A stretch of 34,569 nucleotides of DNA, taken from positions 1-34,569 of IMG/VR virus record IMGVR_UViG_3300042934_000872, one strand, 5' to 3'. The DNA is from a virus. Positions within the stretch are counted from its first letter, which is position 1. Every line of letters begins with the position of its first letter. The position numbers were made by a program, and so were the translations under genes. Below, piece by piece: positions 25,841 through 34,568 of the stretch. Below the pieces are notes generated by a model, which saw only the letters and a list, made by a program, of their open reading frames with translations, was not told the origin of the DNA and made no database searches.

Positions 25841-27583
25841 ATGAATAAAGTGATTGAAAAACAACCAATTCTTATAACCGCCAAGATAAACACTGATAGT
25901 GCAAAAAGTACTAAAATGAAAAAATTAAAAGTTTGCGCTTATTGCAGGGTTAGTACAGATAAAGATGAACAATTGAATAGTTATGAGAATCAAGTTGATC
26001 ATTATGAAAATTATATTAAAGATAATAAAGATTGGGAATATGTTGGAATATTTGCTGATGAAGCCGTTAGCGGTACCAGTTTAAAAAACCGAACAGAATT
26101 TAAGCGAATGATACAAGAGTGTTTAAATGGTAAAATTGATATGATTTTAGTTAAATCTATTGCAAGGTTTGGAAGAAATACCGCTGATATACTTCAATAT
26201 GTGAGACTTTTACGTGATAATAATGTGGCTATATATTTTGAAACTGAAAGAATTAATACATTAAATAGTGATGGAGAAGTATTATTATCAATATTTAGCT
26301 CTTTAGCTCAAGATGAAAGTAGACAAACTTCTGAGCGTGTGAACTGGGGTAATGACAAATCATTTAAAAAGGGTAAAGTATATGGAAACGGCAATTTACT
26401 TGGTTATGATATTAGTGATGGAAAATTAATTATAAACGAACAACAGGCAGAGGTAGTAAGGTTTATTTTCAATAATTATATTGATGGTGATGGTACTGTA
26501 CAAATCTGTAGAAAACTTGAAAAATTAAATATTAAAACTGTCAGTGGAAAAAATAAATGGTCTCCTTCAACACTATTAGGAATTTTAAAAAATGAAAAGT
26601 ATTGTGGGCATTTGTTACAGCAAAAATATTATACTACAGACTACTTATCTCATAAATCATTAAAGAATAAGGGTGAAAAAAGGCAATATCTATTTGAAAA
26701 AAATCATGACCCAATAATATCTCAAGAAATATTTAATAAAGTTCAAGAAGAAATTGAAAGAAGAAGAACCTTACAATTAGCCGAAACAGGAAGAAGAACT
26801 AAGCATAGTAACAAATATCCGTTTAGTGGAATGCTTGAATGTGGAAAATGCAAAGAATCATTTAGAAGAACAGTTTGGCACAATGGTAAAAAATATGAAA
26901 GAGTTGTTTGGGAGTGTATGGGGTATGTCAGAAATAAAAAAGATTTCTGTGATGCTTCAGCAGTTATTGATAGTGCTTTAAAAGAGGCTTTTGTACTAGT
27001 ATATAATGATATTCAAGTTAATAAGGAAGAATTTCTTGAAGATTTTAAAAATGGTCTTGATTTTTACATTAATTCTACTGACTTTTCGAAAGAAATAAAC
27101 ATTGTAAATGATAAAATTAACGATATTGAATTAGAGTTAAGCAATGTTATTAAATTGAAATCTATAAGTAAATTAAATAACAGTAACATTTATGATATGA
27201 ATATATCACAGCTTGAAAATGTGTTAAACGACTTATACAACGAAAAAGAACAAATTGAGAAGACTTCAGATATATTTAATGATAGTCAAAAAACTATTGA
27301 AAAAATTAAAGTTGCACTTAATGAATATAAACAGCTAGATTATTTCAATGAGAAAATTTTTAAAGACATAGTGTCAAAAATAATTATTATAGATTTTAAT
27401 CATTATCAATTTATTCTCAAATCTGGACAAAAAATTGAGAAGAAGCTGGCATTTAAATCTAACGCAAGCTATGTCCTTCTCGATACATTTAAATGCGAAA
27501 TTGACTTGAAATTATCTAAATGTTCTAACTTGAAAAACAAGGTAAATAACCAGTTTACGATAGATATCTATTTCGAAATATAA
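25841..27583 (+). CDS. Large serine recombinase, putative phage integrase
   Basis: This encodes 580 residues, with an ATG after GCGAGGTATCAT. The resolvase-type catalytic domain starts near residue 30 with YCRVSTDKDEQ, where S38 is the nucleophile. Further catalytic-core segments are FADEAVSGTSL and VKSIARFGRN. The recombinase domain (about 180-300) is followed by a zinc ribbon (LECGKCKESF...WECMG...FCDA, about 331-375) and a long coiled coil (about 400-500). This is the layout of large serine integrases that catalyse attP x attB integration. It stands between the early and lysis regions with its own promoter. Either this is a circular or unintegrated genome state, or the enzyme serves another element. 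Confidence 0.95.
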   Translation: MNKVIEKQPILITAKINTDSAKSTKMKKLKVCAYCRVSTDKDEQLNSYENQVDHYENYIKDNKDWEYVGIFADEAVSGTSLKNRTEFKRMIQECLNGKIDMILVKSIARFGRNTADILQYVRLLRDNNVAIYFETERINTLNSDGEVLLSIFSSLAQDESRQTSERVNWGNDKSFKKGKVYGNGNLLGYDISDGKLIINEQQAEVVRFIFNNYIDGDGTVQICRKLEKLNIKTVSGKNKWSPSTLLGILKNEKYCGHLLQQKYYTTDYLSHKSLKNKGEKRQYLFEKNHDPIISQEIFNKVQEEIERRRTLQLAETGRRTKHSNKYPFSGMLECGKCKESFRRTVWHNGKKYERVVWECMGYVRNKKDFCDASAVIDSALKEAFVLVYNDIQVNKEEFLEDFKNGLDFYINSTDFSKEINIVNDKINDIELELSNVIKLKSISKLNNSNIYDMNISQLENVLNDLYNEKEQIEKTSDIFNDSQKTIEKIKVALNEYKQLDYFNEKIFKDIVSKIIIIDFNHYQFILKSGQKIEKKLAFKSNASYVLLDTFKCEIDLKLSKCSNLKNKVNNQFTIDIYFEI

Positions 27584-27636: not shown

Positions 27637-28374
27637 TTAAACCTTATTTACAATATCTTTAACGCTATTAAGCTTATTTTCAATTATCTTAAATTCATTT
27701 TCAGTACTTTCAGCAATTCCTTTAAATTCAATAATTATTTTAACCAACTCATCAGTTCCGACATTCCCTGTTTGTTCCAATCCATATTTTTTTTGTAGTG
27801 ATTTTACAGATGCAAGAGTTTTATTACCGAAATTGCCATCAACATTTCCACAATCATATCCTAAATCATTAAGATAATTTTGTATAGTTTTTACTTTGTC
27901 ATTTTTATCACCAAATTGAATATACATATCATCAACTCCCAATACCATATCTCTGATCTCTTGTTTCTGCTTTAATGTAATGCCGTTATGTATAATTAAT
28001 TGAACATGCCAAGGTTCATGCTCCATAGGTTTTATTAACCCATATGATTTTAATTCAGTGTTAGATAGTTGCGTAAACCATTCATCTGGTATATCCATAG
28101 CAATACAATAATTATGATTTGACTTACCATATGCCGAAGCCCAACAAATCCTATTATCACCAGTGCCAGTATATACTGCACCATCTTCTGTCTGATAAGC
28201 ACCTTTATGACTTGCCAAAACATCTTTATTTATTATTTTTTGTTTTTCTATACTTCTATAACCTGATGAACATAAGCAATCTTTCCCTTTAGCTACACAT
28301 AAAATATTTATTGCTTGAATAAGTTTGGGGAAAACATATACTTCGTCAGAATACTTAAATTTAACACTAGGCAT
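27637..28374 (-). CDS. Endolysin: M15 (VanY-like) peptidase with peptidoglycan-binding domain
   Basis: This encodes 245 residues, with an ATG after AAGAAGTGATTAAAT on the minus strand. The M15 peptidase domain occupies residues about 1-135. SGYRS (37-41) is the conserved opening, zinc ligands are H87 (KSNHNYCIAMD), D94 and H123 (EPWHVQ), and E120 is the catalytic acid/base. A peptidoglycan-binding type 1 domain follows (about 152-215, with GDKNDKVKTIQNYLNDLGYD and DGNFGNKTLASV). It cleaves stem-peptide bonds in the host wall at the end of infection. It is last in the leftward lysis order. No signal peptide is seen, so it needs a holin. Confidence 0.92.
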   Translation of the reverse strand: MPSVKFKYSDEVYVFPKLIQAINILCVAKGKDCLCSSGYRSIEKQKIINKDVLASHKGAYQTEDGAVYTGTGDNRICWASAYGKSNHNYCIAMDIPDEWFTQLSNTELKSYGLIKPMEHEPWHVQLIIHNGITLKQKQEIRDMVLGVDDMYIQFGDKNDKVKTIQNYLNDLGYDCGNVDGNFGNKTLASVKSLQKKYGLEQTGNVGTDELVKIIIEFKGIAESTENEFKIIENKLNSVKDIVNKV

Positions 28375-28390
28375 ATTTAATCACTTCTTT

Positions 28391-29212
28391 CTAATTCCAA
28401 TACACAATGTTATTTAACGTTCTTGATGTTGAATAGATTTTAGCACCAGATATAATCAAATTGCTTGAACCTCCTGCATCTAAACAAATAGAGCCATCAC
28501 ATTTATATTTTTTAGCAACCTGAATAGCTATGTTATAATTTCCATTAAAAAATGCTATAAGTACTTTGCCTGTAGTAGAATTATAAGCCATAATATTTCT
28601 TATACACTTTCTACCAACCTCATCTTTATCCCAACCTTCAATGATCATGTTTTCACCATCAAAAGTTTCAAAACCTTGAATACAAAACCATATCTGATTT
28701 TTCTTTTTATACTCCATTAGTTCTATATCTTTCATTCTTTTTACAATTGTTGTACCATCTTTGAGAACTAAAAAAGTACCTCTGAACTTATTTGAATTAC
28801 TGTAGTTCAATTCTTTTCCTTCACTATATAACCATCCAATTACATGATTCTTTTTATCCCCGTTTGCAAAATACCAAAAGAATGCACCATTCATAAAACT
28901 CTTGTGTTTTTGAAGTAGGGAAGTGGAAGTAGATGAAACTAAACTGCACTTTAAATCCTTCGGATTAAGCCAAATAATTTTTTCATTATAATTTTTTGTA
29001 ATATTTTTAACTGCATTAATCAAAGCCTGATAAGTAACGTTCCCAACAATTCCATCAATTGGCTTGATGAGAGCATCCTCTTGAAACAGTTTAACAATTT
29101 TTTCTGTTCCACTTCCAAAAATTCCATCACATGATATATTAAAGCCACATGACTTTAATAATTTCTGCATAGTTAGAACTAAATTACCTTTAGAACCTTT
29201 TTTCAATAACAT
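28391..29212 (-). CDS. Peptidoglycan-binding protein with phosphodiester glycosidase (NAGPA) domain
   Basis: This encodes 273 residues from the ATG at 29212, which has GTGGTGAT upstream. An in-frame GTG at 29227 overlaps that ribosome binding site. Residues 1-70 are a peptidoglycan-binding type 1 domain (LKKGSKGNLVLTMQKLLKSC, then DGIFGSGTEKIV). The rest matches the NAGPA phosphodiester glycosidase fold: N108-G109-A-F-F near the start and the signature LDAGGSSNL at 244-252. The family cleaves sugar-phosphodiester bonds. In a phage lysis block an obvious substrate would be phosphodiester-linked wall glycopolymers such as teichoic acids. That substrate is an inference. It lies between the endonuclease and the M15 lysin. 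Confidence 0.82.
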   Translation of the reverse strand: MLLKKGSKGNLVLTMQKLLKSCGFNISCDGIFGSGTEKIVKLFQEDALIKPIDGIVGNVTYQALINAVKNITKNYNEKIIWLNPKDLKCSLVSSTSTSLLQKHKSFMNGAFFWYFANGDKKNHVIGWLYSEGKELNYSNSNKFRGTFLVLKDGTTIVKRMKDIELMEYKKKNQIWFCIQGFETFDGENMIIEGWDKDEVGRKCIRNIMAYNSTTGKVLIAFFNGNYNIAIQVAKKYKCDGSICLDAGGSSNLIISGAKIYSTSRTLNNIVYWN

Positions 29213-29270
29213 TAATTTAATCACCACTTTCTTTTAAATAAGAAAAAGGAAGATAAGTTTTAAAATAAAA

Positions 29271-30473
29271 CTAAATTCTCTTCTTTTTTAAATTCAATCC
29301 GTTGTTTAAAATATTTTCTATATTATCAAAATCCCAATACCAAATTTCTAACAAGTTTATATTTTTATTTATTGCATATTGCTTCTTACGTCTATCATGT
29401 TCAAGTTGTTTCTCAAAATCTTTTTTTGAATTATGAAAACCTTTAATAATTTTTTCATGTTGCTCACCTTGATATTCGATCAATAAGTTATGATCTGGTA
29501 GATAAAAATCATAAGAGAGAAGACCTCCTCCTAAACCAATTAGTCCATCAAAAGTTTTTTGAGGCTCATTAAGAATATGATGGATAGTTAAAATTTCAGA
29601 AATTCTTTTTTCTCCTTTTGAAAATGCACATGAAGGACATCTAAAATCATATGTATTTGAAGCATGAACATTCCGTTGATAATCTTCATGTATTCCTTCT
29701 GAACATTTCCACCATGGAACTTCTATGAGACTACCGATGGAAACCTCAAATGGAGTTTTTTCATTTTTATCAGACCATAATTCTATAGCCTTTGGTATAT
29801 TTGCACCAAGTGAATCAAGTTCATGTACTTTTTTACTGCAACAATATCCACATCTAGTACCTTGAATGAATGAACAACATGCAACACTATATATATGATA
29901 CTCAAATTTTTGGCACTGAAAAATCGGTTTCAAAGTTGAACTTCTTGGTACATCAAATGGATTTAGAACATTACTATTATGCCAATATTTTTCGAGAGCA
30001 TCGTTTCCCAAATTATCAAATATCCATTGACCAATTGAATTGCATTTATTACATTTTGCTGAAGTATTTTGGTTCTTTATAATACAAGCAATACTTTTAA
30101 GCTCTGGCTCATGAACCCCTTTAGGACAATTAAACCAATAGTCTCCCTTAGTTTTATATACCTCACTCGGTAAACAATTATTTAATTCGTTATTCCATCT
30201 ATCCAATAAATCATTTCTATTATTTTCAATACACCATTCTTCAAATGTTTCTTTTTTATATTTCTCTTTATATATAATTTGATTAGGTTCATCTTTAACT
30301 AAATTTTCTTTTATGCAACATGTGCTACAATAATATTTGTTATCATAAAAAATGTTTTTAATATAGTCTTCATATTGTTTTGTCTCTAGTTTGCCACATA
30401 TAGCACAATTCACCACTACTGAATTTCTTTTTGTAAATGAAAATTCATACGTTTTTAATTTATTTTTTGACAC
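29271..30473 (-). CDS. Zinc-finger PD-(D/E)XK (EDxHD-like) endonuclease, probably selfish
   Basis: This encodes 400 residues from the GTG at 30473, which follows GGAGGGTTTAAT. A longer reading up to 30575 would cross a terminator and is rejected. An N-terminal Cys pair module (CAICG...YCSTCC) is followed by three tandem treble-clef-like repeats of about 60-70 residues, each with a Trp/Asn-rich opening and Cys-x2-Cys. The C-terminal nuclease shows SYDFYLPDHNLLIEYQGEQHE and LEHDRRKKQYAINKNINLLEI, typical of Vsr-like/EDxHD homing nucleases such as I-Bth0305I. It separates the membrane protein from the two lysins and has no visible promoter of its own. It looks like an intergenic homing endonuclease. 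Confidence 0.85.
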   Translation of the reverse strand: MSKNKLKTYEFSFTKRNSVVVNCAICGKLETKQYEDYIKNIFYDNKYYCSTCCIKENLVKDEPNQIIYKEKYKKETFEEWCIENNRNDLLDRWNNELNNCLPSEVYKTKGDYWFNCPKGVHEPELKSIACIIKNQNTSAKCNKCNSIGQWIFDNLGNDALEKYWHNSNVLNPFDVPRSSTLKPIFQCQKFEYHIYSVACCSFIQGTRCGYCCSKKVHELDSLGANIPKAIELWSDKNEKTPFEVSIGSLIEVPWWKCSEGIHEDYQRNVHASNTYDFRCPSCAFSKGEKRISEILTIHHILNEPQKTFDGLIGLGGGLLSYDFYLPDHNLLIEYQGEQHEKIIKGFHNSKKDFEKQLEHDRRKKQYAINKNINLLEIWYWDFDNIENILNNGLNLKKKRI

Positions 30474-30505
30474 ATTAAACCCTCCGTTAAAAGTTTTATA
30501 AATGG

Positions 30506-30538
30506 AAAAAGACCCTGTGTTAACGGCACAGAGTCTTT
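30506..30538 (-). terminator. Hairpin terminator upstream of the endonuclease gene
   Basis: On the minus strand AAAGACTCTGTG and CACAGGGTCTTT pair with one G-U over a 7-base loop and run into TTTTT. It would end transcription from the tail and membrane-protein genes before the endonuclease and lysins, unless read-through or anti-termination occurs. Confidence 0.75.
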
Positions 30539-30641
30539 GTTTTAAATCCATTAAGTTTGCAACCTTAATAGACAACCATATTAATTTTATTCAGCAATAT
30601 ATTTCTTTAAAATACCCCTTAAAATAGTTGTTTTATATCCT

Positions 30642-31067
30642 TTAAAATAATTTATATCTTGGTTTATCCTCATGAAACAAAAGCCATCTTAAAACATCAT
30701 CGAGAACAATAGCAATTACTGAAAGTAAGAGCCAAGCTAACGAAAAATATAAAGATATCTGCCCAAAAATATTAAAGGGAAGATTACTATAATCCCAAAT
30801 ATGCAATCCTAACCACACATTAAGAATTAAACCACTTATAAATTCTAGAAGTGTTATAATAATTGTAGCTATTAAACTTTGTAACCATAATGGGGTTTCC
30901 CATGAGTAAAGCTCATTGATTAATCCGCAAGCAACAAAACATAATCCACCTAAAATCGCCATTTGCCATGTAGATAAATTTCTGTAAAATATCTCAATAA
31001 AATAATAAATAAAGCCACCGATACAAAAAAGTATCAGCAGCTTAAAAATAGATTTAATACATCTCAT
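30642..31067 (-). CDS. Four-helix membrane protein, CmpB/ABC type IV-like, candidate holin
   Basis: This encodes 141 residues, with an ATG after ATAGGTGATATT on the minus strand. Four hydrophobic segments are visible: about residues 6-25, 34-50, 62-88 and 103-123. The stretch NVWLGLHIWDYSNLPFNIFGQISLYFS has the W-DYS-x-FN-x-x-GQI pattern of the PF06541 'putative ABC-transporter type IV' membrane family. That family often sits in clostridial prophage lysis blocks. No ATPase gene is nearby, so a transporter is unlikely. Its position between tail genes and lysins makes a holin the best guess. The C terminus is charged (HEDKPRYKLF). Confidence 0.7.
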   Translation of the reverse strand: MRCIKSIFKLLILFCIGGFIYYFIEIFYRNLSTWQMAILGGLCFVACGLINELYSWETPLWLQSLIATIIITLLEFISGLILNVWLGLHIWDYSNLPFNIFGQISLYFSLAWLLLSVIAIVLDDVLRWLLFHEDKPRYKLF

Positions 31068-31721: not shown

Positions 31722-34568
31722 CTACACCTTCTTTCTGCAATCTGCATCCAGTTTAATTGTGACATATGCTCCACAATTTAATGCATTATCTGCCAATGTA
31801 CCAGCAAGTAACACAACGTTAATAACAACATAATCTTTAGTCACATATCTGACAATAGGACTACCATTCAATATATCAGCAGCTTTTACAGTTGTTGGAT
31901 TACCAATATTATCTGTAACCACCATTGACCAAGATTTTATATTAATATATGGAACTGTATTTTTAGTCACCTTAAACGGGATATTTATCGCTACATTTGT
32001 TTGACTTTGTTGAGTAAACCATGTTCTTGTACCTCTATATGGCATTTGAGTGCCATTAGCATCACCACCAGAAACAATACTCTCAAGGCTAGCTAAATCA
32101 TTTATATCATCTAATACGCTGCTCTTAGCTTGTTTCTGTTCAAGTTCCTTGCTATGTCCTTCCAACGTTGCTATTACACTCTGAGAGTAAGACAATGATA
32201 GGCTACCAAATGATTGAGCATGTATGGTTTTAAGGATTTGGTAGTCTACGGTGTAGGTTGCAGAGGTATCATATTTACCTTGGTCTATATATGCATCGGC
32301 TCTACCTATTGCGTAAATATCGTCTTGTCTTAATACCCATGCATCATATATGCTATTATGATACACACCTGTTATAATTTCTGCCTTATACTTAAGATTA
32401 CTTCCTGCTCTTAAAGTATTATTAACTCCGTAATTTGTACCATATAAAACAGCATTGGCGATTTCAGCCAGTACAATACCAGAATCAACCGTAATGTAGT
32501 TGTCACCCTTAACCATATCCCATATTTCACCATGAACATGGGTATTGATATCTGTTATCGGTTCTGGATTAGCCAGTTTGTAGTGTAATTGATATCCTTC
32601 ATACCCAGAGGATACATTAGTTTTACAATAATTCACAATCCTATAGTCACCACCAGTTGGATTGTCTCCACGTACCACCACACGTCCTACAGCAAAATCA
32701 AGTGCTGCTCCATAAGCAGTAGTAATTACATTTCCAACTATATTTGTTATTATTACACCACCTTGACCATATATAAATATAACCTCACCAATTTTAAATA
32801 TACTAGCATCAGCCACGGTAATACTTGTATTACCTGTTGTAACGGGAGCGGTCAAGGTAGTAGCAGTACCAGAAGGATAAACTGATGTATCAGTACCAAA
32901 AACTGATGTAGGTTTACTCAGATTTGCCCAGAGGTTATATCGACCAACGCCAACATCATATGATAAAGTTCTCCAACCATTCATATATGATTTTATTTCA
33001 TCTGAATTTGGTTGGACAGCATCTATCCACCCCGAACTTAAATTAGGTATACCTATTAAAAAATAGTTTAGTGAGGCTACGGCACGATATTGGTCACCAG
33101 CTATAACTGCTGAGTCCTCTCCAAAAGATTTAAGCACTTGCCCATCATATTTTATAAGATAAGAATTAGACGCTACACCTAATGAAAATTCCCTATTCAT
33201 TATAACTATCTCCTTACTACCACTGGGATTAGCATTAATTTGCCAATCATAATCCTTACCATATAATGTTCTATGTTTCCAGTTTAATAACCCCGACACT
33301 TTACCATTTTCTATATTTACTTGATCATCTTGAGTAAACTGACCTTCTATCACAAATCTCTGTAAATCACAGGATTTGTATGCAGTAGGAGCAGTTGTAC
33401 CTTCCACAAGCATAATAGAATCAAAATATGTTGTGCCTGCTGTTGTTCCCCCATGCAGAATTAGATGAATTTCTGTACTATCACCCGTATTAATTACACC
33501 CAAACCATCATGCAGTTGTGATCCTCCAGAATTTAAGGTTATAAAGAATCCATTACCACTCCAGTTGCCTGATAGGTAATAGTTTGTATTAGGTTTTACT
33601 TTTATAGTTTGCCCCCAATAAGTATAAGCAGAAGTCGTTACTAATTTGAATTTACCATTCTCGACTGATATTGTTCCAGTTCCATACATAAATTGCCAAT
33701 ACCCTATACCTTCTTCACAGTTACCATTTCTTACTAAATTGTAGCGCCTGTTTTCAAAGTATGGATTTTGGAGACAAGCGTAACTATCTACATATGGATA
33801 CTTTACCAATAACTCTGCATCGCTTAAAGCGTAATCAGTAGCAGATATTTCATTTAGCATAAATCCATCTATATAGATATATTGTCCTGCTGTTCCCACA
33901 AAATCTATAGCTATAGCATCTCCAGATGTCATCTGAGCTGGTGTAGCTTTTATGATTACTCGGGTAAACTTAGAAGTATCTGTAATTTCTGGACTAACAA
34001 TATTTAAAGTAGCTCCATCATTTGATTTTCTGAGTATAGCTCTAGTAGCATTACCAATTTTAATATAGACAGTTACCATATAGTATTTAGAAACATCTAT
34101 ATTTTTGGGAAACATATAAAATGTTCCAGAAGTAGCTGTTAAAGTTGCCTTTATACTGTATGTTCCATACATCTTATTTGTTGAATCAAGTGTTGGTGTA
34201 CACTGATATACGCTCCACTTACTTATATCTTCACAATTACCGTCTTTACCCAATAAGTTAACTACAGAAAACCCTTTAAACTTGAACTTAGGTGCTGTAG
34301 GCATTTCGGGTATTTGAATTTTACTATTCATACCAAATCCAATTGTGGGAGTTATAACTGAACCAGAAGATATTTTATCAGATATAGTATTGATTTCGTT
34401 AGTGGCATTATTAAATTGTGTCTGAATAGAAGATGTAACACCGCCAATATAATTTAACTCCGATACAGATACACTCAAGCCAGTTAAACTATCCGCAACA
34501 TCAGCAGAGTTAACCTTACCATCGTTATTATTGTCGTAAACTTGATATGTCATATTTCCTGAACCAGC
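31722..34568 (-). CDS. Tail-fibre / host-recognition structural protein, cut by the window edge
   Basis: About 948 residues are visible, and the frame stays open to the right edge. The ATG at 34553 has only a weak AGGA upstream, so the gene probably begins outside the window. Near the visible start, DNNNDGKVNSAD is a 12-residue EF-hand/dockerin-like calcium loop. Then come a helical linker, two carbohydrate-binding-like jelly-roll modules each opened by 'NGNCE' or 'DGNCED', and a Gly/Ser/Thr-rich beta region. A short coiled coil (near EGHSKELEQKQAK) precedes the C-terminal beta domain. The composition and modules fit a receptor-binding tail or baseplate fibre. It heads the visible leftward unit. 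Confidence 0.75.
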   Translation of the reverse strand, partial: AGSGNMTYQVYDNNNDGKVNSADVADSLTGLSVSVSELNYIGGVTSSIQTQFNNATNEINTISDKISSGSVITPTIGFGMNSKIQIPEMPTAPKFKFKGFSVVNLLGKDGNCEDISKWSVYQCTPTLDSTNKMYGTYSIKATLTATSGTFYMFPKNIDVSKYYMVTVYIKIGNATRAILRKSNDGATLNIVSPEITDTSKFTRVIIKATPAQMTSGDAIAIDFVGTAGQYIYIDGFMLNEISATDYALSDAELLVKYPYVDSYACLQNPYFENRRYNLVRNGNCEEGIGYWQFMYGTGTISVENGKFKLVTTSAYTYWGQTIKVKPNTNYYLSGNWSGNGFFITLNSGGSQLHDGLGVINTGDSTEIHLILHGGTTAGTTYFDSIMLVEGTTAPTAYKSCDLQRFVIEGQFTQDDQVNIENGKVSGLLNWKHRTLYGKDYDWQINANPSGSKEIVIMNREFSLGVASNSYLIKYDGQVLKSFGEDSAVIAGDQYRAVASLNYFLIGIPNLSSGWIDAVQPNSDEIKSYMNGWRTLSYDVGVGRYNLWANLSKPTSVFGTDTSVYPSGTATTLTAPVTTGNTSITVADASIFKIGEVIFIYGQGGVIITNIVGNVITTAYGAALDFAVGRVVVRGDNPTGGDYRIVNYCKTNVSSGYEGYQLHYKLANPEPITDINTHVHGEIWDMVKGDNYITVDSGIVLAEIANAVLYGTNYGVNNTLRAGSNLKYKAEIITGVYHNSIYDAWVLRQDDIYAIGRADAYIDQGKYDTSATYTVDYQILKTIHAQSFGSLSLSYSQSVIATLEGHSKELEQKQAKSSVLDDINDLASLESIVSGGDANGTQMPYRGTRTWFTQQSQTNVAINIPFKVTKNTVPYINIKSWSMVVTDNIGNPTTVKAADILNGSPIVRYVTKDYVVINVVLLAGTLADNALNCGAYVTIKLDADCRKKV

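Follow-up and report, generated by a model that had tools for sequence, protein, structure and literature searches.

A PG_binding_1 protein with a compact NAGPA-fold domain in the lysis block of a probable clostridial phage

NAGPA domains in described proteins

Endolysins are classed as glycosidases, amidases or peptidases, and we know of none that uses the class of bond by which GlcNAc-1-phosphate is attached to MurNAc. In Gram-positive walls, LCP enzymes join the GlcNAc-1-phosphate of an anionic polymer to the MurNAc of peptidoglycan (PMC8807736), and NAGPA takes GlcNAc off GlcNAc-1-P-mannose (PMC12024695). The NAGPA domain has been counted as a catalytic part in four gut phage endolysins of the order CHAP-NAGPA-SH3_3 (PMC13284279) and has been regarded as a depolymerase in Curtobacterium prophages, the idea being that it removes receptor decorations (PMC9862828). 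It also occurs in large proteins of spore-forming Bacillota (PMC12419801). For GDPD/GlpQ-type phosphodiesterase domains of phage tails, an attack on teichoic-acid phosphodiesters has been proposed (PMC10194240). Canonical NAGPA domains are present in phage tail proteins as well, including SPbeta YomE (with a beta-helix spike part), SPO1 gp2.43 (encoded beside tail spikes) and a coliphage tail spike, and in a viral structure library NAGPA-fold proteins carry the names peptidase, autolysin, CHAP and PlyB-like endolysin. A literature search of limited reach, with most subscription papers outside it, found no experimental work on phage NAGPA.

The gene, its fold and its neighbours

The window, that is, the whole stretch of 34,569 nucleotides analysed here (IMGVR_UViG_3300042934_000872), is a viral fragment of 34.6 kb. 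Its DnaE shares 58% identity with the DnaE of Clostridioides phage LIBA6276, and the host is therefore very likely a member of the Clostridia, as judged by sequence. The gene under study and its parts are as follows, with domain and residue numbers counted from GTG 29227.

28391..29212, minus strand: gene for a PG_binding_1 plus compact NAGPA-fold protein of 273 aa (open reading frame, start and ribosome site, domains, hydropathy)
29021..29188, minus strand: PG_binding_1 domain, residues 14-69 (Pfam, 42.1 bits, cut-off 23)
28394..28987, minus strand: compact NAGPA-fold domain, residues 81-278 (AlphaFold2 model, VIA-align, profiles against PDB NAGPA structures)
28877..28891, minus strand: motif NGAFF (NGxFF in the family; N113), its N found in 31/36 canonical and 10/12 compact members
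28457..28483, minus strand: motif LDAGGSSNL (NLDGGGSS in the family), with D250, G252 and S254 kept, A in place of the first G and C in place of the N before L

The start at ATG 29212 preferred by the first-pass annotation is the better one, given the position of the ribosome site: it is preceded at 8 nt by a Shine-Dalgarno-like aaagtggtga, and the GTG at 29227 chosen by the ORF caller overlaps that very element. Hydropathy indicated neither a signal peptide nor a transmembrane stretch in the 273-aa protein, and domain searches gave just PG_binding and NAGPA in it, with no peptidoglycan-cutting domain.

That a wall-binding domain is fused here to a NAGPA-type domain, as that annotation had proposed, is borne out by the Pfam match of the first and by profile and model homology of the second. 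The AlphaFold2 model is poor over the PG_binding half (pLDDT <60), whose assignment rests on the Pfam match; this half is 56% identical to its counterpart in the amidase-PG_binding-NAGPA lysin of a related phage. A recent duplication of the PG_binding domain of the neighbouring M15 protein was rejected as its origin, the two being 35% identical over 46 residues.

The NAGPA half matches PF09992 at residues 123-274 with E 0.004 and 17.8 bits, below the cut-off of 25, and we therefore file the protein as a divergent subfamily with the NAGPA fold rather than as a plain NAGPA enzyme. Its compact relatives score above that cut-off (27-48 bits). When the window domain and its two nearest relatives were compared as a profile with canonical phage NAGPA, the probability was 97% (E 1.2e-10), and a profile made from eight relatives, the window domain among them, found 3ohg (E 5e-7) and NAGPA 6pki (E 3e-4) in the PDB. 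The AlphaFold2 model, built on a nine-sequence alignment (a single-sequence model reached just pLDDT 35), has a pLDDT mostly of 70-96 at residues 81-278, dropping around 120-130 and 190-200. Foldseek matched the modelled domain to the NAGPA fold (E 5e-10), and VIA-align superposed it on guinea-pig NAGPA 6pku over 196 residues at 2.4 A (Z 21.1). All eight VIA-align rows with Z of at least 15 (range 15-21) were structures of the NAGPA/DUF2233 fold, 5h3k and 6ozd being counted as such by inference from a profile match, and the next row was unrelated (Z 3.1). A chance occurrence of the NAGPA motifs is ruled out by the profile matches to the PDB, Foldseek and VIA-align. By the profiles and the predicted model, the NAGPA assignment is secure for fold and ancestry despite the sub-cut-off Pfam score.

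The genes around it form a block on the same strand:

27637..28374, minus strand: M15-type peptidase (VanY) plus PG_binding_1, a conventional endolysin (Pfam, PHROG endolysins), 16 nt downstream of the NAGPA-fold gene and with its own ribosome site
29271..30575, minus strand: HNH/homing-endonuclease-type gene with a DUF4379 zinc finger (PHROG 559, 9084; Pfam DUF4379), inside the block between the membrane-protein and PG_binding-NAGPA genes
30642..31067, minus strand: four-helix membrane protein, ABC_trans_CmpB-like, phrog_20274 of unassigned function (Pfam, PHROG, hydropathy)

The adjoining M15 endolysin of the first-pass annotation is real, with matches to VanY (25.8 bits, cut-off 25) and PG_binding_1 (57 bits) in Pfam and the zinc-ligand pattern SxHx6D...ExxH. 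Upstream of the PG_binding-NAGPA gene come the HNH-type endonuclease gene, the four-helix membrane protein and then tail-fibre genes; a homing-endonuclease or moron role for the PG_binding-NAGPA protein is without support. Pfam and PHROG scans assigned no gene of the window to a holin family, and the membrane protein at 30642..31067 is the sole putative holin candidate in the block. Further out, the tail fibre-like protein at 31722-34553 (minus strand) has an N-terminus, YDNNNDGKVNSADVADSL, that resembles a dockerin or EF-hand calcium loop. On the other side a large serine recombinase (25841-27583, plus strand) adjoins the lysis genes and is convergent with them, which suggests a temperate phage with its integration gene near lysis.

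A compact subfamily and its partners

Single-sequence searches of viral contigs, genome contigs, phages and plasmids found nothing closely related to the domain or to the entire protein, and the best matches of one such search were PG_binding matches. Scans of Clostridia genomes gave relatives at 25-32% identity in 11/391 genomes, and profile scans added more, the eight-member compact alignment being too diverse to serve as a profile for a collection scan. The nearest relatives of the window domain (L131, L129) are about 40% identical to it. Hardly any of 50,697 phage records contain the compact subtype, and in a PHROG scan of the compact domains those of the window, L124, L128 and L131 matched no family and that of L126 matched weakly; the subtype is therefore easily overlooked.

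The first-pass annotation had called for a survey of the domain pair, and this survey shows the compact NAGPA domain recurring in the lysis cassettes of phages, either in one chain with wall hydrolases or beside them. The partners include Amidase_3 directly (L087, L126, L147, L149, L150), Amidase_3 with PG_binding in between (L085), Amidase_3 with a copper-amine-oxidase-type domain (L090, L124), Amidase_2 (L148), an Rv2525c glycosidase-like domain (L129) and, on the C-terminal side, Amidase_3 followed by SLH (L151). Stand-alone domains are encoded by a gene that overlaps an M15_3 peptidase gene (L128) and by one beside or overlapping an Amidase_2-SH3 gene (L131). Many compact members have phage tail genes or genes for small membrane proteins (in one case a Holin_SPP1) as neighbours, and family-assigned holins are present in some of the related cassettes. 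The architecture of the window protein itself, PG_binding-NAGPA, returns in L146, in surroundings with no obvious phage genes, and compact domains also occur in secreted bacterial proteins that carry a dockerin or a domain of the copper-amine-oxidase type (L084, and L088 with its kin L086, L089), so that the compact subfamily is not exclusive to phages. The secreted clostridial protein at 1018-2007 of L084 joins a dockerin to the compact NAGPA domain, and its cousin in L083/L143 has an in-frame TAA. By their sequences, then, the compact members form an uncharacterised subfamily that recurs with wall hydrolases in clostridial phages and prophages.

The canonical domain is very common in Clostridia, with 174/245 genomes carrying it. 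No wall hydrolase or wall-binding domain was present in 27 of the best-scoring canonical NAGPA ORFs of clostridial genomes, a set that was not a random sample. A canonical domain does occur in a lysin of a 138-kb relative of the window phage (L070/L072), which has the order Amidase_2-PG_binding-NAGPA and a Phage_holin_4_1 gene next to it, and in L073 amidase-PG_binding and PG_binding-NAGPA are adjacent ORFs. Short subtilase-like ORFs lie on either side of the latter pair (L073 1678-2049 and 4355-5029), by eye possibly a broken gene. The DnaE relatives of the window phage (48 records, many of them fragments) were searched for the NAGPA domain and gave one match, which was canonical; the domain thus does not look like a core gene of the group.

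When 36 canonical and 12 compact members were compared, the window domain was found to retain N113, G137, R210, D250, G252, S254 and R269. Within the compact set R210 is present in 11/12 members and D250, G252, S254 and R269 in all 12, the lysin relatives L085 and L128 lack the N of NGxFF, and the window domain has A at the first G of DGGGS. Missing from the compact subfamily are the near-invariant DG(R/Q), the asparagine of NLDGG, an NxP close to the C-terminus and the proline preceding R. Since mammalian NAGPA has DGQ, the R of DGR is dispensable, but with several near-invariant residues missing catalysis is not assured.

A predicted accessory step in lysis

That a second lysis-module protein stands beside the M15 endolysin, as first annotated, gains support from the recurrence of its relatives with cell-wall hydrolases in lysis cassettes, and we regard the lysis-module reading as well supported. 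Since the window protein has no peptidoglycan cutter of its own and its M15 neighbour is one, it is better described as an accessory lysis protein than as a strict endolysin. Our main reading, at a probability of about 0.5, is that of an accessory lysis enzyme which, released by the holin and bound to peptidoglycan, would hydrolyse a sugar-1-phosphate bond of an anionic wall polymer. The protein would be expressed late together with the M15 endolysin, would leave the cytoplasm through the holin, having no signal peptide, and would be anchored on peptidoglycan by its PG_binding_1 domain. The compact NAGPA-fold domain would then hydrolyse its phosphodiester, most likely the one between GlcNAc-alpha-1-phosphate and the 6-hydroxyl of MurNAc in the teichoic-acid linkage unit, although a polymer built on sugar-1-phosphate repeats would serve equally well. 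Removal of the polymer could give the M15 peptidase access to the wall, or could keep released phages and lysins off the debris. The appeal of the linkage unit comes from analogy: GlcNAc-1-P-MurNAc is chemically like the NAGPA substrate GlcNAc-1-P-mannose, and a NAGPA domain anchored on peptidoglycan would be well placed to meet it. Cleavage of a phosphodiester-linked wall polymer by the domain is plausible. We give hydrolysis of a sugar phosphodiester roughly an even chance, and the precise linkage bond is a tentative target, with a chance of roughly one in four to five.

A serious rival, though a less likely one than the main reading, is that the compact fold is no longer catalytic and acts to bind the wall polymer; the window protein would then be a double-binding partner that helps the M15 endolysin to find the wall. 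Several near-invariant NAGPA residues are indeed lost, and in many fusions (L087, L126, L147, L149) the NAGPA domain lies C-terminal to the amidase, the usual place of a lysin binding domain. However, a separate wall-binding domain and the NAGPA domain coexist in L085, L146 and the window protein, and the compact set as a whole retains the N, the R, D-x-G-G-S and the C-terminal R, the pattern expected of a working cavity. Such a cavity might also act on another wall bond, glycosidic or in a polymer decoration, instead of a sugar phosphodiester. The differences from the canonical domain at several conserved motifs would agree with this, as would the very varied partner hydrolases, to which the domain may add a general function, but the fold makes up one tight family with known phosphodiester glycosidase members, and we consider a changed chemistry unlikely. 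To our knowledge no other activity has been described for the NAGPA fold family, and we know of no activity for any compact member. More generally, that the domain is joined to varied peptidoglycan cutters would agree with its bringing either a different activity or extra binding.

The same domain could instead be thought to belong to the virion, clearing the cell surface at entry rather than at exit, since canonical NAGPA domains sit in tail proteins such as those of SPbeta, SPO1 and the coliphage, and the window block comes after tail fibre genes. The window protein lacks any tail-attachment or beta-helix part, carries a peptidoglycan-binding domain and is encoded 16 nt from an endolysin gene, all of which makes a tail enzyme very improbable.

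If the accessory-enzyme reading is true, a recurrent, separately evolving domain acting on an anionic wall polymer would provide a second step in the lysis of Clostridia, and the phage may strip teichoic-acid-like polymers from the wall as the host bursts. Such an activity could explain lysins that are restricted to certain walls, and it would offer a tool to release intact teichoic acids or other secondary wall polymers. A wider proposal, which we think doubtful but worth stating, is that of a phage lysis-enzyme subfamily that detaches teichoic-acid-like polymers at the GlcNAc-1-phosphate-MurNAc bond and that would act as a plug-in across clostridial phages, encoded alongside amidases, peptidases and glycosidases or fused to them.

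Comparison with described systems

Among described systems, mammalian NAGPA (the 'uncovering enzyme') resembles the window domain in fold over nearly the whole domain (Z 19-21) and in NGxFF, the R of RTAIG and D-x-G-G-S, but it has DGQ, NLDGGGSA and an inhibitory propiece, all of which the shorter phage domain lacks. The bacterial DUF2233 protein BACOVA_00430 (3ohg) shares the fold (Z 17.6) and is the best profile match, yet it retains DGR and NLDGGGST and is not a lysin; a 2013 paper on DUF2233 reportedly found weak phosphodiester glycosidase activity for it and mentioned viral members. The prophage lysin L085/L164 (Amidase_3-PG_binding_1-NAGPA) has the compact subtype with PG_binding_1, as in the window, and adjoins tail and small holin-like genes, but it carries its amidase within one chain. 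SPbeta YomE and SPO1 gp2.43 are likewise phage NAGPA domain proteins, with the canonical domain and in tail or tail-spike contexts. GDPD/GlpQ-type domains (PMC10194240) are likewise phage wall enzymes proposed to act on teichoic-acid phosphodiesters, but they belong to the metal-dependent GDPD family, are virion-bound and cut a glycerol phosphodiester. The CHAP-NAGPA-SH3_3 endolysins of human gut phages (PMC13284279) also combine NAGPA as a catalytic part with a wall-binding domain, but have CHAP in one chain with SH3, whereas the window has M15 as a separate gene, PG_binding_1 and a divergent NAGPA subtype. To call the lytic activity unusual, as the first-pass annotation did, was fair, but the domain had already been listed in those endolysins, and NAGPA-fold phage proteins were already in databases. 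NAGPA-bearing endolysins are thus known, and it is the compact subtype with a separate M15 partner that is new.
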